Assembly: GCA_018608425.1 (NCBI GenBank)
Contig: JABAZL010000097.1
Span: 1 to 58,036, forward strand
DNA: 58,036 nt
Source of the DNA: Flavobacteriaceae bacterium
GTDB taxonomy: Bacteria > Bacteroidota > Bacteroidia > Flavobacteriales > Flavobacteriaceae
Direction: 5' to 3'
The notes beneath the pieces are model-generated. The model did no database searches, was not told the origin of the DNA, and was given only the letters and a program-made list of their open reading frames with translations. Positions within the stretch are counted from its first letter, which is position 1, and the number at the start of each line of letters is the position of its first letter. Positions 14,398 through 20,469 of this stretch are shown in pieces. The position numbers and the translations under genes were made by a program.

Positions 14398-15858
14398 CTA
14401 GAATAATTTCAATAATATTTCTTGTACAATCTGACGGTCGTCAAACTGCGTTTTTACCCCTTTTATTTCTTGATACGCTTCGTGCCCTTTGCCTGCTACA
14501 AGTAAAATATCCTTATCAGACAAAAGCATGCAAGCAGCCTTGATCGCCTCTTTGCGATCGCTAATTCGCAATGTTTTTTTATAATCTTCTGGTGCTACTC
14601 CTGCCTCCATATCGGAGATTATTTGCTCTGGACTTTCTGATCGCGGGTTATCTGATGTAAAAACAACACGATCGCTCATCTGTGCGGCAATAGCTGCCAT
14701 TTTTGGTCTTTTACCTTGATCACGATCTCCACCACAACCAACAACTGTTATTACTTTTTCGTTTTTTGTGCGAACTGAATTAATGGTCTTCAATACATTT
14801 TTAAGTGCATCGGGCGTGTGCGCATAGTCCACTATAACCAATGAACCCTTGGGCCCTTGAATGGTTTCGAAACGTCCACTCACGTTTTTAAGTTTGCTTA
14901 TTCCAGCTAAAGTTTCAAGTGAATCTTGTTCCATCAAAATTGCAACAGCATACACGGCTAAAAGATTAGATGCGTTAAAAGCGCCAATTAGTTGAGTCCA
15001 TAACTCCTGAGAATCAACCTTCAAAAGCATGCCTGTAAATTGATGCTCCAATATTTGAGCACGGAAATCAGCATAATTTTCTAAGGCATATGATTTTTTA
15101 TGAGCCTTGGTATTTTGAACCATGAAGGAACCGTTCTTATCATCCATATTCACCAATGCAAATGCTGACTTGGGAAGGAAATCAAAAAATTGTTTTTTAG
15201 TGTCTCGGTAGGCAGCAAAAGTTTCGTGATAATCTAAATGATCTTGTGTAAGGTTGGTAAAAACACCTCCTTTAAAATGCAACCCGTGAATTCGACCTTG
15301 GTGAATTCCATGAGAAGAAACTTCCATAAAGCAAGAGCTAATTCCAAGAGCAACCATCGCGCTCAAATGCTTATTAATGGCAAGAGGATCTGGAGTTGTA
15401 TGTGAAGCTGGTAGTATTTGAGTTCCATATTTGACTGCAACCGTAGAAAGTAATCCAACTGCATATCCCATTACCGTAAATAGTTCGAAACACAAACTAG
15501 CAATAGTCGTTTTACCATTGGTTCCCGTAATCCCAATTAAGTCAAGTTTACGAGATGGATGATCATAATAATTAGCCGCCATAACCGCTAAAGCAATCCG
15601 TGTATCATTTACTCGAACAAAGGTTATTTCTGACGTATCATAGTCACCTTCATCTTCTACCAATACTACAGTAGCACCTTGCATAATTGCAGCTTCGATA
15701 TAATCGTGTCCGTTAACTGCATCTCCTTTTATTGCAACAAAAAGAGTGTCTGAAGTTACTTCGCGTGAATCATACGCTAAGGCACTAATTTGTTTGTCAA
15801 TCGAACCATAGGTCTGTTCGATCGATACCCCAAATAAAATGTCTTTTAACTCTTTCAT
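14398..15858 (-). CDS. murE: UDP-MurNAc-tripeptide ligase (meso-diaminopimelate type)
   Basis: Mur ligase that adds the third stem-peptide residue. The P-loop [15 protein letters not shown] lies near residue 108, with the ATP/substrate segments HTTPDP and [14 protein letters not shown]. The specificity motif DNPR (in [13 protein letters not shown]) marks enzymes that use meso-diaminopimelate rather than lysine, consistent with mpl elsewhere in the window. It has 486 residues, normal. It overlaps ftsI by four bases (ATGA). Confidence 0.97.
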
Positions 15859-17849
15859 GAAAGCTCTAATAAAATTTGTTGTTTGCTTTTTACTTTGGAC
15901 CCCTGCTTTATTGACTGGCGCTTAACCTTACCCTTACCTTTCAATTGCACTTTCAGTCCCAATCGTTCCAATAACATCAGTGCATCCATGGCTTGCATAC
16001 CTTTTACATTTGGGATTATTTGATCGACCAAGGTTTCTTCGAGTTTGTCGAAAGCAAATTCATTTGTGGCAAGGTTTTGATTCGGAACAACTACTCTTTT
16101 AGCAGTTGTATTAAAGATATTAAGTGCAATCTCTTTGAAAACTGGAGCCGCAACCGTAGCGCCATAATAACCGATACGTTTATTTGGACGATGAATAACT
16201 ACAATACAAGAATATTGCGGTGCTTCTGCAGGAAAATAGCCTACAAAACTTGAAACATATTGTGTTTCATCTTTAGTATAATCGACCTGACAGGTGCCGG
16301 TTTTTCCAGCAATAGAAAAATTCTTATCCTTTATTTTATGTGCTGTACCCCATTTTTTATCAACTACATTGAACATCATTTTCTGAACTTGTTTCAATGT
16401 CTCTTGAGAACAAATAGAAGGATTGATTACTTCTTTTTTAAAATGTTTTACAGGCTCTTCACCAAAACTACTGATACGATCAATGAACTTGGGTTTTACC
16501 ATTTCACCGCCATTGGCAACAGCATTGTAAAAGGTTAAGGTTTGTAATGGAGTCATCAACACACCATAACCAAAAGCCATCCAAGGCAGGTCCAAACCAT
16601 CCCAATCTCCATCGGTCGGATAGGGGATTTTGGGTAGTGCCTCGCCCTTAAAAGGAAGTCCAAGTGGCTTATGTAAACCCATATTATAGAGTCGATCTAC
16701 AAATTTGGAAGGCTTGTTTTTATAATTATCATAAATCATTTTAACGATTCCTGTATTCGAGGAAAGCTCAAAAGCTTTGGATGCTGTCAACATACCATAG
16801 CCGCCTTTTTTAGAATCTCGGACTTTATATTTCTTGAAGAAAGTAAGCTCACCTCCAGTGGTATCGACTAAGTCGTCTGCACGAATTACTTTATCTTCAA
16901 GAGCGGCAATCATCGCCATAAGCTTAAATGTAGAACCCGGTTCATGGGCTTCTCCGATTGCATAGTTGAGTTTTTCGTAATACTTCCCTTTCGAAGTTCT
17001 GCCCAGATTAGAAATTGCCTTAATGTTCCCCGTTTTGGTTTCCATCACAACAACACTCCCATGATCCGCTTCAAATTTTTCTAGTTGAGCCAACAAGGCA
17101 TGATGAGCAATATCTTGCATGTTGATGTTTATCGTTGTGTAAACATCATAGCCTTCTGTTGGTTCTTTTTCGTTGTTATCGTTTATCGGCTTCCATTGTC
17201 CGTTTGCGATTTTCTGTTTCAATCTGCGTCCGTTCTCGCCTTTCAGATACTGACCGTAAGCACCCTCTAATCCTACTCGCAAGTAATTTCCACTTGGATC
17301 TCTTTGCTCATACCCTATGGTTCTTTCTGCTATTTTTCCAATTGGATTTTCTCGAGTCAACCGCGATTCGACAATCAATCCTCCTCGCATAGAGGATTTA
17401 CTAAATAAAGGGAAGCCTTTGATTTTCTTATAGGTCGAGTAGTTTAAGTTTCTACCTATTAATAAATAGCGGTTTTTCTTAGTACGGGCACGTTGTAGTT
17501 TTTGAAGATAAAAAGAGCTGGGTTTTTCAAATAGTGCTCCCAGAAGAATAGCCAAGCTATCTTTGTGTTCTTGAAATAATTTTTCAGAGGGAACCTTTGC
17601 ATCCCATCGGATTTCATAGCGTGGAACTGTAGTTGCCAGTAAACTCTCGTCGTCGGCATAAATATTACCTCTACTAGGCTGAAGTACAAAATTCTTTACG
17701 GTACGTTGTTGTGCTAAGTCGCGATAGTAATCGCCTTCAGAAAATTGAATTACAAATAATTTATAAACCAAAAGACAAGCAAAGACAAACATGCCCAGTA
17801 CCACTAGGTAAAAACGGCTCGTTATTGTTTTTGTCTCTGTACTACTCAT
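15855..17849 (-). CDS. ftsI: Division transpeptidase (PBP3/FtsI) with PASTA domain
   Basis: Class B penicillin-binding protein that crosslinks septal peptidoglycan. It has a short cytoplasmic end, one membrane segment (about residues 13-34), a dimerisation domain and a transpeptidase domain. The active-site S306-T-F-K309, S363-S-N365 and K516-T-G518 are all present. The last roughly 55 residues (IPNVKGMQAMDALMLLERLG and on) form one PASTA domain, usual in Bacteroidota FtsI. It has 664 residues. It overlaps ftsL by four bases (ATGA) upstream and murE by four downstream. Confidence 0.97.
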   Translation of the reverse strand: MSSTETKTITSRFYLVVLGMFVFACLLVYKLFVIQFSEGDYYRDLAQQRTVKNFVLQPSRGNIYADDESLLATTVPRYEIRWDAKVPSEKLFQEHKDSLAILLGALFEKPSSFYLQKLQRARTKKNRYLLIGRNLNYSTYKKIKGFPLFSKSSMRGGLIVESRLTRENPIGKIAERTIGYEQRDPSGNYLRVGLEGAYGQYLKGENGRRLKQKIANGQWKPINDNNEKEPTEGYDVYTTININMQDIAHHALLAQLEKFEADHGSVVVMETKTGNIKAISNLGRTSKGKYYEKLNYAIGEAHEPGSTFKLMAMIAALEDKVIRADDLVDTTGGELTFFKKYKVRDSKKGGYGMLTASKAFELSSNTGIVKMIYDNYKNKPSKFVDRLYNMGLHKPLGLPFKGEALPKIPYPTDGDWDGLDLPWMAFGYGVLMTPLQTLTFYNAVANGGEMVKPKFIDRISSFGEEPVKHFKKEVINPSICSQETLKQVQKMMFNVVDKKWGTAHKIKDKNFSIAGKTGTCQVDYTKDETQYVSSFVGYFPAEAPQYSCIVVIHRPNKRIGYYGATVAAPVFKEIALNIFNTTAKRVVVPNQNLATNEFAFDKLEETLVDQIIPNVKGMQAMDALMLLERLGLKVQLKGKGKVKRQSIKQGSKVKSKQQILLELS

Positions 17850-18163
17850 TGCTCTTTGGATTCTATCACCAGTCTTAATGGTGGTGTTTTAGCTGGTTTT
17901 ATTCCTTTTTCGCGGAGCGACTCCGTAACCCGAGACTCCATTTTCAATTCCATCAAATAAGCACGTTTTTCAACAAACTGACTCTTCATCTCTTTCAGTT
18001 CGTTATTGAGTTGAGCGATTTGAAAAATCTTACGATCTGCCAAATGACCACTCGATATGATCAGGAGTGCTAAAAAAGACACAAACAAAATCATACGCCA
18101 ATTTTTCAAAGCATCATCCTTGACCAAAAATTCCATATTCAAGAAAGACAGTAGTTGCTTCAT
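17846..18163 (-). CDS. ftsL: FtsL-like cell division protein
   Basis: A 105-residue bitopic protein: cytoplasmic N-terminus, one membrane helix at about residues 23-42 (RMILFVSFLALLIISSGH) and a short periplasmic coiled coil (about residues 48-85), the FtsL topology. FtsL acts with FtsQ and its partner to activate FtsW/FtsI. FtsL sequences diverge widely, so the call depends on topology and on the fixed position between rsmH and ftsI. It overlaps both neighbours by four bases (ATGA). Confidence 0.9.
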   Translation of the reverse strand: MKQLLSFLNMEFLVKDDALKNWRMILFVSFLALLIISSGHLADRKIFQIAQLNNELKEMKSQFVEKRAYLMELKMESRVTESLREKGIKPAKTPPLRLVIESKEQ

Positions 18164-19062
18164 TTTTTTTCTGCTGTTCTTAGTTTTGCACTTCTTGCTC
18201 TACTATTTTGCTTTATTTCTTCTTCATCTGGAATAACCAAGCCGCCAACTTTTTTCAAAGGCGTAAACCGATTACCAAAAAAGTCTTGCTCAGCTGCACC
18301 TTCAAAAACTCCTTCCCTGATAAAACGCTTTACCAGACGATCTTCTAGCGAGTGATAGGAAATACAAACCAAACGCCCTTGAGGCTTCAAAACTTCCGCC
18401 GTTTGCTCAAGAAACAACTTGATCACTTCCAACTCTTGGTTTACTTCAATTCGAATAGCCTGAAAAACTTGAGCTAGAATTTTATTCAAAAAACGTTCTG
18501 GAATCAAAGGCTTAATCAATGCTATCAAATCTGTTGTAGTTTCGATTCGCTCTTCTTCTCTATGATCTAAAATGGCAGCAACAATTTTATGTGCTCCTTT
18601 TACCTCTCCATATAATTTCATTATCGATATCAATTCCTGTTCGGAATAATCGTTCACAACTTCATAAGCGGATAGTGCCGAAGTCTGGTCCATTCGCATA
18701 TCCAAACGACCTTCAAAGCGAGTTGAAAAACCTCTTTTTTCTGCATCAAATTGATGTGATGACACACCAAAGTCAGCTAGAATCCCATCTACTTCTTTTA
18801 CACCATAAAATTTTAGGTAGCGCTTGAGGTCTTTGAAATTAGCTTGAATCAGTTCGAACCTGGGATCGGACAAGACATTCTCAGCTGCGTCTTGATCTTG
18901 GTCAAATGCAAATAACCTGCCTTTATCGGAAAGTGCTTTTAATATTTTTTTTGAATGTCCGCCACCACCAAAAGTCACATCAACATAAACGCCATCAGGG
19001 TTTGTAATTAAATCTGCAACACTTCGATCCAGTAAAACCGGATTATGATATTTGGTCTCCAT
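18160..19062 (-). CDS. rsmH: 16S rRNA (cytosine1402-N4)-methyltransferase RsmH
   Basis: SAM-dependent methyltransferase acting on C1402 of 16S rRNA, formerly MraW. The SAM motif VDVTFGGGGHSKKIL lies near residue 27, ADFGVSSHQFD near 96 and GFSTRFEGRLDMRMD near 110. CISYHSLEDRLVKRF near 233 is the diagnostic signature. It has 300 residues, as expected. Its start lies 20 bases inside mraZ and its end overlaps ftsL by four bases. Confidence 0.98.
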   Translation of the reverse strand: METKYHNPVLLDRSVADLITNPDGVYVDVTFGGGGHSKKILKALSDKGRLFAFDQDQDAAENVLSDPRFELIQANFKDLKRYLKFYGVKEVDGILADFGVSSHQFDAEKRGFSTRFEGRLDMRMDQTSALSAYEVVNDYSEQELISIMKLYGEVKGAHKIVAAILDHREEERIETTTDLIALIKPLIPERFLNKILAQVFQAIRIEVNQELEVIKLFLEQTAEVLKPQGRLVCISYHSLEDRLVKRFIREGVFEGAAEQDFFGNRFTPLKKVGGLVIPDEEEIKQNSRARSAKLRTAEKK

Positions 19063-19510
19063 CTTTGTCTCCCATTACGTCTTCGGCTAAAGCACCGAAG
19101 TCAATTGTAGCCTCATTAATAGCTTCTTCATAACGGTCTTTATCCCAAATCTCAAGAATATTGACAGCAGAAGAAATAACCGTTTCCTTAGTAATACCGG
19201 CATGCGTAACCAGGTCTTTTGGAATCAATAAGCGGCCAGTAGCGTCGACCTCAACCAAACGCACTCCCGCCGTAAATCGTCTAATAAAATCGTTGTTCTT
19301 TTTATTAAAACGATTGAGCTGATTGACCTTTTCCATCATAGCCTCCCATTCTTGAATAGGATACAACTCCAAACAATTATTAAAAACAGCACGCTTCAAC
19401 ACAAATTGTTCTGCAAGATTCTGCGCCAACTGCTTTTTTAAAGCAACAGGCAGCATGATACGTCCTTTAGTATCTGCCTTACATTCATATGTCCCAATAA
19501 AGTGCTGCAT
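19043..19510 (-). CDS. mraZ: Transcriptional regulator MraZ
   Basis: First gene of the division cluster. A 155-residue DNA-binding protein of two SpoVT/AbrB-type repeats: CKADTKGRIMLPVALKKQL (residues 11-29) and VEVDATGRLLIPKDLVTHAG (around 91-110). MraZ oligomers bind short GTGG-type direct repeats before their own gene and repress the cluster in E. coli. Three such repeats with 10-base spacing lie just upstream here. The last 20 bases overlap rsmH. Confidence 0.96.
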   Translation of the reverse strand: MQHFIGTYECKADTKGRIMLPVALKKQLAQNLAEQFVLKRAVFNNCLELYPIQEWEAMMEKVNQLNRFNKKNNDFIRRFTAGVRLVEVDATGRLLIPKDLVTHAGITKETVISSAVNILEIWDKDRYEEAINEATIDFGALAEDVMGDKDGDQIS

Positions 19511-19535: not shown

Positions 19536-19578
19536 CAAATATAAAATATATTTCCCACAATTTTCCACTTAATACCAC
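19536..19578 (-). promoter_or_regulatory. mraZ promoter with three MraZ-binding repeats (MraZ box)
   Basis: On the minus strand GTGG occurs three times at exact 10-base spacing (complement CCAC at 19575-19578, 19565-19568 and 19555-19558; the last is GTGGG). Next comes TATATTTG at 19536-19543, a match to the -7 element TAnnTTTG, about 25 bases before the mraZ ATG. MraZ is known to bind TGGGN-type repeats separated by five bases, which is this period. The repeats cover the place where the -33 element should be, so autorepression is the simplest reading. Confidence 0.72.
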
Positions 19579-19664
19579 TTTGTTGATAAGTTTCCAATCC
19601 CAACCACAGCAAAGGCTTGAGCTATAAGAGTTAAATAAATAAGAGTGAATCGGTTAATATTAAC

Positions 19665-19672
19665 TATATTTG
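19665..19672 (+). promoter_or_regulatory. -7 box for the hydrolase-engB unit
   Basis: TATATTTG fits TAnnTTTG and lies 32 bases before the ATG at 19705. No TTG is found at the correct distance upstream, so only half of the consensus is present. The 194-base gap between mraZ and this gene holds these divergent signals and nothing else that I recognise. Confidence 0.45.
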
Positions 19673-19704: not shown

Positions 19705-20469
19705 ATGGAAAAAAAATTTACAGAAGAAGGGGATTTCAAATACAGCGAAATTGGAGAAGGGCAACCCATAGTAATCCTACATGGATTAATGGGTGGACTT
19801 AGTAATTTCGCAGGTGTTGCAGATTTTTTCCCAAAGCAAGGCTACAAGGTTCTCATACCTGAATTGCCGATATACGAATTACCATTAATCAAAACGAATG
19901 TTAAAACTTTTTCGGACTATCTGAAAAGCTTTTTAACCTTTAAAAAAATTGACAATGCCATTCTCCTAGGCAACTCACTTGGAGGCCATATTGGATTAGT
20001 ATTTGCGAAAAATCATCCAGAATTGGTAAAAGGTCTTGTTCTTGCAGGTAGTTCTGGTTTATACGAAAACTCTATGGGTGAAAGCTACCCAAAAAGAGGT
20101 GATTACGAATACATAAAAACCAAGGCTCAGGAAGTGTTTTTTGATCCTGATGTAGCTAGCAAAGAAATCGTTGACGAAGTTTTTGAAGTTGTTAATGATC
20201 GAAATAAGCTCATACGGACTTTAGCAATCGCCAAAAGTGCAATTCGCCACAATATGGCTAAGGATTTGCCAACAATGCACATTCCTACTGGTCTAATTTG
20301 GGGAGAAAATGACAAAGTTACTCCACCCAATGTAGCCGACGAATTCCACAAGTTATTACCAGATTCTGACCTCTATTGGATCAAAGAGTGTGGGCATGCT
20401 CCTATGATGGAACATCCAGATACATTCAACGAAAAACTTTTGGAGTGGCTCAAGAAACGTAACTTTTAG
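19705..20469 (+). CDS. Alpha/beta hydrolase
   Basis: A 254-residue single-domain alpha/beta hydrolase without a signal peptide. The oxyanion region is LHGLMGG (25-31). The nucleophile is S91 in GNSLGG, the acid is D203 in WGENDKVTP and the base is H231 in CGHAPMMEHP. The substrate is unknown. I start at the ATG 19705; the frame runs open to 19645, but that extension crosses the promoter and lacks homologous character. It lies 5 bases before engB, with which it forms a two-gene unit. Confidence 0.9.
   Translation: MEKKFTEEGDFKYSEIGEGQPIVILHGLMGGLSNFAGVADFFPKQGYKVLIPELPIYELPLIKTNVKTFSDYLKSFLTFKKIDNAILLGNSLGGHIGLVFAKNHPELVKGLVLAGSSGLYENSMGESYPKRGDYEYIKTKAQEVFFDPDVASKEIVDEVFEVVNDRNKLIRTLAIAKSAIRHNMAKDLPTMHIPTGLIWGENDKVTPPNVADEFHKLLPDSDLYWIKECGHAPMMEHPDTFNEKLLEWLKKRNF

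Follow-up and report, generated by a model that had tools for sequence, protein, structure and literature searches.

A putative composite MraZ and DnaA-type control site at the division and cell-wall promoter of Flavobacteriales

The mraZ promoter region

The window, by which we mean the whole 58,036-nucleotide stretch of Flavobacteriaceae DNA that was analysed, carries on its minus strand a division/cell-wall (dcw) cluster headed by mraZ. Close relatives of the locus that carry a name belong to Candidatus Arcticimaribacter and other marine Flavobacteriaceae; the order referred to throughout, Flavobacteriales, was assigned from the names of relatives, and f1, f5 and the like are working family labels. 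The features are listed below.

15855..17849, minus strand: division transpeptidase, a penicillin-binding protein with PASTA (PF00905, 5.4e-57; PF03793, 8.9e-12)
17846..18163, minus strand: ftsL-like gene (PF19579, 1.8e-36)
18160..19062, minus strand: mraW/rsmH, overlapping the end of mraZ (PF01795, 1.4e-89)
19043..19510, minus strand: mraZ, 155 aa, first gene of the cluster (PF02381, E 3.5e-29, in two domains or stretches)
19536..19543, minus strand: presumed -7 promoter element TATATTTG (TANNTTTG), 11 nt downstream of box 3 (from the -7 consensus)
19555..19578, minus strand: putative MraZ box, three GTGG units of period 10 (from the sequence and its conservation across order and phylum)
19581..19589, minus strand: DnaA-box-like 9-mer TTATCAACA, 2 nt upstream of box 1 (from its register and as a motif shared with replication genes)
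19665..19672, plus strand: TATATTTG, likely the -7 element of the divergent gene (from the sequence)
19705..20469, plus strand: divergent alpha/beta hydrolase gene (PF00561, 1e-21)

The Pfam match, invariant residues and predicted fold identify the mraZ product as MraZ. Both halves contain a DXXXR motif, DTKGR (D13..R17) and DATGR (D89..R93); among 37 sequences D13, R17 and R93 are invariant, and D89 is kept in at least 90%. The predicted fold (pLDDT 87) was matched by Foldseek to 1n0e, the MraZ of M. pneumoniae (3.4e-12, TMq 0.73), and to 9r4j (3.2e-11); 9r4j and 9sz7 are M. genitalium MraZ on its promoter, showing that MraZ-promoter complexes exist, and the PDB title of 9sz7 refers to a ‘4 box promoter’. 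An alpha/beta hydrolase-like protein is also encoded divergently from mraZ in four other genomes (G011, G014, G124 and G163).

Across the promoter the mraZ coding strand reads AACTTATCAACAAAGTGGTATTAAGTGGAAAATTGTGGGAAATATATTTTATATTTG, followed by the ATG at 19510. Re-reading of the positions confirmed CCAC on the plus strand at 19555, 19565 and 19575, with the exact 10-base period described in the earlier note; on the minus strand these are GTGG units at 19578-19575 (box 1), 19568-19565 (box 2) and 19558-19555 (box 3). The TGGG form is read by box 3 only, box 1 being GTGGT and box 2 GTGGA. The window has a single copy of the pattern GTGG-N6-GTGG-N6-GTGG, against none in 100 dinucleotide shuffles of it, and the pattern is likewise single-copy in the 1.65 Mb of sequence from the same genome (72% complete). 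The array thus has the direct repeats, GTG/TGGG core, 10-base period and position before mraZ that define an MraZ box.

Promoters of Bacteroidota follow a -33/-7 rule, and the -7 consensus behind the assignment of TATATTTG and TANNTTTG is that of Flavobacterium and Bacteroides work. The box noted earlier after the repeats is indeed there, as TATATTTG at 19543-19536 on the minus strand, before mraZ, separated by 11 nt from the end of box 3 and by 21 nt from the end of the box 2 GTGG. With this spacing box 2 falls at the expected Bacteroidota -33 place. In 76 of 80 close relatives TANNTTTG likewise follows the last GTGG by 11 nt. Among 74 loci with an array across the order, the spacing is 10-12 nt in 24, 21 nt in 18 (where one promoter-proximal unit is degenerate) and 0-2 nt in 3, while 29 have no TANNTTTG within 30 nt of the array, many of them reading TATATTAG or TATATTTAC instead. 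The exact -7 word is therefore not conserved across the order.

Distribution of the GTGG array

Among 296 genomes of the order, 232 had an MraZ match and 163 had the triple, usually in one copy; the pattern read backwards, as a control, gave 18 genomes (a count of rows over the same 296). The motif search proposed in the earlier note bore out the association, the triple occurring only where mraZ is present (163/232 genomes with mraZ, 0/64 without; rows paired by hand, the five unlisted genomes outside f16 being assigned by exclusion). Fifty of the 64 genomes without mraZ belong to one small-genome family, f16, and of the other 14 only G012 and G013 have an mraW match over the cut-off, so that the dcw cluster is probably missing from 12 assemblies, which weakens this contrast.

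The position of the triple is a better test of the operator reading than the presence or absence of mraZ. In each of the 70 genomes that allowed triple and mraZ to be placed, the triple lies directly upstream of mraZ: in 30 of 30 loci whose sequences were given mraZ follows directly downstream, and in 40 of 40 further genomes the triple shares the strand of the MraZ match and precedes it by less than 400 bp. Stronger evidence than the 0/64 contrast that the repeats go with MraZ also comes from upstream of mraW, where none of 10 readable genomes lacking mraZ had a period-10 GTGG pair within 500 bp (10 of 12 such genomes with mraW over the cut-off; two of the 10 are from the order, and mraW may have moved in some).

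It is very improbable that the repeats are instead some other promoter or DNA-structure element. Such a reading could draw on the off-target triples of a few genomes, since the triple is not perfectly specific: five of the 40 genomes (G163, G246, G266, G286 and G066) carry an additional triple elsewhere; for G252 and G272 (mraZ loci L072 and L073) the triple counted is not at mraZ. Against it stand the invariable placement at mraZ in comparable genomes, the absence of the array where mraZ is lost, and the match to MraZ sites described, in the accessible parts of the papers, as GTG repeats of period 10 (PMC7761207) and, in Mollicutes, as the motif AAAGTG[T/G] (PMC8475190). The former also agrees with the earlier statement that the period is that of MraZ operators in other phyla.

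A weaker form of the array is more widespread than the exact triple. The 78 loci aligned across the order come from distinct genomes, 30 picked for the triple, 20 by hand (11 of these for showing no triple) and 28 as best matches to the MraZ model; the 28 picked by the model alone have the triple in 14 and a period-10 GTGG pair in 27. Distances between GTGG units peak at 10 (126) and 20 (53), and to a lesser extent at 21 (20), in the 78 loci, and at 10 (33) and 20 (16) in 30 loci outside the order, of which 21 have a period-10 pair and 12 the triple. Absence of periodic repeats from closely related genomes, which the earlier note had named as counter-evidence, was not seen: all 80 close relatives have the triple. 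Most f5 genomes are without the triple but retain two or three GTGG units, preceded by a degenerate first unit; loss of the operator from these genomes was considered and rejected, as the units remain and the 9-mer described below lies one unit further out. Taken together, the sequence comparisons indicate that the GTGG triple is very probably the MraZ operator.

The adjoining 9-mer and its recurrence at replication loci

The earlier reading as an MraZ box, supported as it is by position, period and co-occurrence, was nevertheless incomplete in that it overlooked TTATCAACA. In the promoter alignment only 2 nt separate box 1 from the end of a 9-mer, TTATCAACA or TTATTAACA. The register is kept by 77 of 80 close relatives and by 69 of 78 loci across the order, at 2 nt in 44 and at 12 nt in 25, where the first unit is degenerate; two more loci have a spacing of 3 nt, and the other misses include L051, where another GTGG pair was taken as the first, and L068 and L070, with a broken unit. 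Outside the order no locus of 30 has the 9-mer in register with the array. In f5 the 9-mer lies one 10-bp unit further from the promoter, so that the helical phase is kept; at f5 loci such as L038-L040 and L072-L078 the operator is shifted by one 10-bp unit and the 9-mer is 2 nt from the degenerate unit.

DnaA boxes have the E. coli form TTATCCACA and the consensus TTWTNCACA. The 9-mer variants at mraZ fit TTWTN[AC]ACA, that is, the DnaA pattern with position 6 relaxed, and TTATCAACA agrees with the DnaA box everywhere but at position 6, where it has A. The strict TTWTNCACA is thus not matched by TTATCAACA in the window; it is matched at some f7, f5 and f18 loci, with TTATCCACA itself present in f18 and at some f7 and f5 loci.

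The same 9-mer clusters upstream of rpiB. In G003 several 9-mers lie in an intergenic region upstream of rpiB, where the GC skew goes from -0.22 to +0.26; contig C35 of the genome under study (L306, 3015-3515) has seven 9-mers in about 470 bp upstream of rpiB, together with a change of skew sign. Across 27 genomes (L313-L339), at least two copies of TTWTN[AC]ACA lie within 600 bp upstream of rpiB in 24 (exceptions G163, G192 and G141), and the skew, calculated over only about 3.4 kb per genome, rises from negative on the left to zero or above in 24 (exceptions G163, G030 and G141). Summed over 1200 bp, the 9-mers here have A or C at position 6 in a ratio of 73:17. The sequence evidence makes this the probable oriC of the order, and the 9-mer therefore clusters, as a DnaA box should, at the origin of the clade, the origin itself being placed by skew. 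A location next to dnaA was rejected, as none of the 14 dnaA stretches covered, out of 20, had a dense 9-mer cluster (maximum 3 in 500 bp). For Elizabethkingia, the accessible part of one paper also places oriC far from dnaA (PMC8994065).

Promoters of replication genes carry the 9-mer as well. A search for 9-mer pairs returned conserved 29-bp pairs before dnaB and HU, and a 13-mer search returned mraZ, HU, gyrB and dnaN along with intragenic sites. Since the longer pattern AASTTATYAACAA was not enriched genome-wide over the backward control, the proposed regulon rests on orthologous promoters and not on totals. In 200-bp promoters the strict TTATNMACA was found at mraZ in 67/78, HU in 15/25, dnaB in 16/26, gyrB in 12/27, rpiB in 16/27 and dnaA in 12/44 (five genomes counted twice), with a background of 13/255 promoters that includes dnaA's own (11/124 in AT-rich ones) and shuffle maxima of 4 to 10. 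Pooled, HU, dnaB and gyrB gave 43/78 against that background; leaving out the discovering genomes, the counts were 7/17, 13/23 and 10/25 respectively, to be read in the knowledge that these genes were chosen after matches had been seen and that the genomes are related, the counts not being independent events. The 9-mer, even with TTWT, is missing before HU in 6 of 7 f5 genomes and before dnaB in 6 of 8 f7 genomes. HU promoters of f1, f14 and several f7 genomes (L340-L353) have two 9-mers 20-21 bp apart, some 105-147 bp before the start. In L254 (G048) and L291 (G030), a gene whose translation reads as an HU-like/SPOR-type protein has 9-mers close to its start.

These occurrences bear on what reads the 9-mer. 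The MraZ ring itself might read it as part of an extended operator, as the fixed 2-nt spacing, the constant orientation within the order and its movement with the array in f5 would allow; the strict 9-mer is also absent upstream of mraW in G012 and G013, which lack mraZ, with only TTTTTAACA at -365 in G012. We regard this as improbable, however, given that the same 9-mer stands at the probable oriC and before HU, dnaB and gyrB while the triple usually occurs once per genome, and that operators outside the order lack it in this register. Another replication-linked regulator or nucleoid protein, rather than DnaA, would account for the departure of position 6 from the DnaA consensus and for the weak enrichment in dnaA promoters. 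This too is unlikely, if less so: clustering at the GC-skew switch and degeneracy of the TTWTN type are the behaviour of DnaA sites, and TTATCCACA itself occurs at f18 and some f7 and f5 loci. The TTATCAACA half of the composite is thus, in our assessment, probably a DnaA-type site.

Boxes of DnaA type also appear near mraZ in other families. In f18, an inverted TTATCCACA, TTTTCCACA or TTATGCACA lies at -80 to -96 in 8 of 10 mraZ promoters, and an additional box in forward orientation occurs in 6 of the 10; f17 has inverted boxes in 3/3 and f20 a forward box in 1/1, f22 (0/3) and f23 (0/2) have none, and other classes have 4/29. The pairing may therefore be older than the order, with a geometry that differs by family. 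As the TGTGG of the inverted boxes resembles an MraZ unit, the f17 and f18 counts are weaker evidence than the forward 9-mer, and in f18 DnaA and MraZ could share sites. At eight f18 loci (L088, L089, L104, L111, L427, L428, L430 and L438) the inverted boxes keep a near-constant distance from mraZ.

The DnaA protein was also compared. The E. coli domain IV motif is DHTTV, the residue before TV being 435. In 50 loci (L192-L241, five genomes twice), Flavobacteriales have DHATV and f5 DHSTV. That a change at this residue causes A at position 6 is no more than a lead, as DHATV is also found in the f7 genus g43, whose mraZ site has C there (L062); the motif does not follow position 6 cleanly. Covariation of position 6 between the mraZ site and oriC, taken by family, was not clean. 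Blattabacterium is described, in the part of the source available, as being without dnaA and DnaA boxes (PMC2768785); if f16 is the Blattabacterium family, which is a guess, its loss of mraZ and box is in keeping with this.

A proposed MraZ and DnaA-type switch and its known counterparts

What is observed is the sequence itself, the register, its conservation, the loss of the array with mraZ, and a 9-mer common to the probable oriC and replication-gene promoters. On this basis the likely explanation is that the dcw promoter carries a composite control site of MraZ and DnaA type. The GTGG units, spaced by a helical turn along a single face of the DNA, would be the operator for MraZ, which, made from the first gene of the cluster and bound over the -33 region, would repress its own operon. 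TTATCAACA would behave as the DnaA box of the order, with the initiator DnaA binding across a 2-nt gap, roughly a helical turn from box 1, where it might help, hinder or compete with MraZ or the polymerase. Transcription of the dcw cluster could in this way respond to replication status. We infer the binding of MraZ at the array, that of DnaA at the 9-mer and any direction of effect from sequence comparison.

DnaA titration sites exist, and the 9-mer could be one, or could be inherited without regulatory effect beside a plain MraZ operator. The exact spacing is kept across families while the flanks vary, which speaks more for one shared complex than for a free titration site; we consider the titration reading unlikely, slightly more so than binding by another replication regulator. 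Returning to the composite site, a stronger proposal, to which we give even chances, is a Flavobacteriales-type dcw switch in which DnaA and MraZ occupy neighbouring sites separated by 2 bp and replication initiation thereby directly sets division and cell-wall transcription, other families of the class having an inverted DnaA box.

How replication and division are coupled in bacteria is an old open question. A DnaA-type site at a fixed distance from an MraZ operator in many genera makes it approachable by a simple promoter experiment, and the 9-mer beside that operator, found also at replication genes and the probable origin, suggests a built-in link between DNA copying and division. The array would extend MraZ operators to Bacteroidota, TTWTNAACA is suggested as a working DnaA-box variant, and upstream of rpiB a probable oriC position is given for an order where dnaA is often not beside the origin. 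Our literature survey, which covered titles and abstract openings with subscription papers mostly outside its scope, found no Bacteroidota MraZ box or DnaA box at mraZ.

Like known DnaA boxes, the 9-mer of the window type has degenerate positions 3 and 5, clusters where the GC skew switches and precedes gyrB, dnaB and HU; unlike them, it mostly has A at position 6, and the DnaA domain IV reads DHATV or DHSTV where E. coli has DHTTV. In Bacillus subtilis DnaA controls the yllB(mraZ)-ftsL operon, a case of DnaA on a dcw promoter, as proposed here, in a different phylum; we know of no fixed spacing between an MraZ box and a DnaA box in that species.

The array resembles, as far as the accessible parts of the sources go, the MraZ boxes of E. 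coli (Eraso 2014) and Mollicutes (Fisunov 2016), which are direct repeats with a GTG core and period 10 before an mraZ that heads the dcw cluster, and the Burkholderia cenocepacia site, with GTG repeats of the same period before mraZ (PMC7761207). The M. genitalium complexes 9r4j and 9sz7, judged by their titles, share the GTG-core repeats of period 10. The E. coli, Mollicutes and Burkholderia boxes belong to different phyla. A further difference is the 9-mer attached here at fixed spacing. In line with the earlier claim that the repeats occupy the -33 region, box 2 is at the expected -33 place and the array lies upstream of the -7 element, whereas the Burkholderia site, like that of E. coli, is reported downstream of the -10 (PMC7761207). 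The array and 9-mer are best described as a variant form, an apparent MraZ operator joined to a DnaA-box-like site. A precedent comes from E. coli, where at the mioC promoter MraZ is reported, in the available text, on a site overlapping a DnaA box (PMC4446571, citing Eraso 2014). The two sites occur together there as they do here, near oriC in the case of mioC and at mraZ itself in the present one; those of mioC overlap, whereas ours are adjacent, with 2 nt between them, and conserved across an order.
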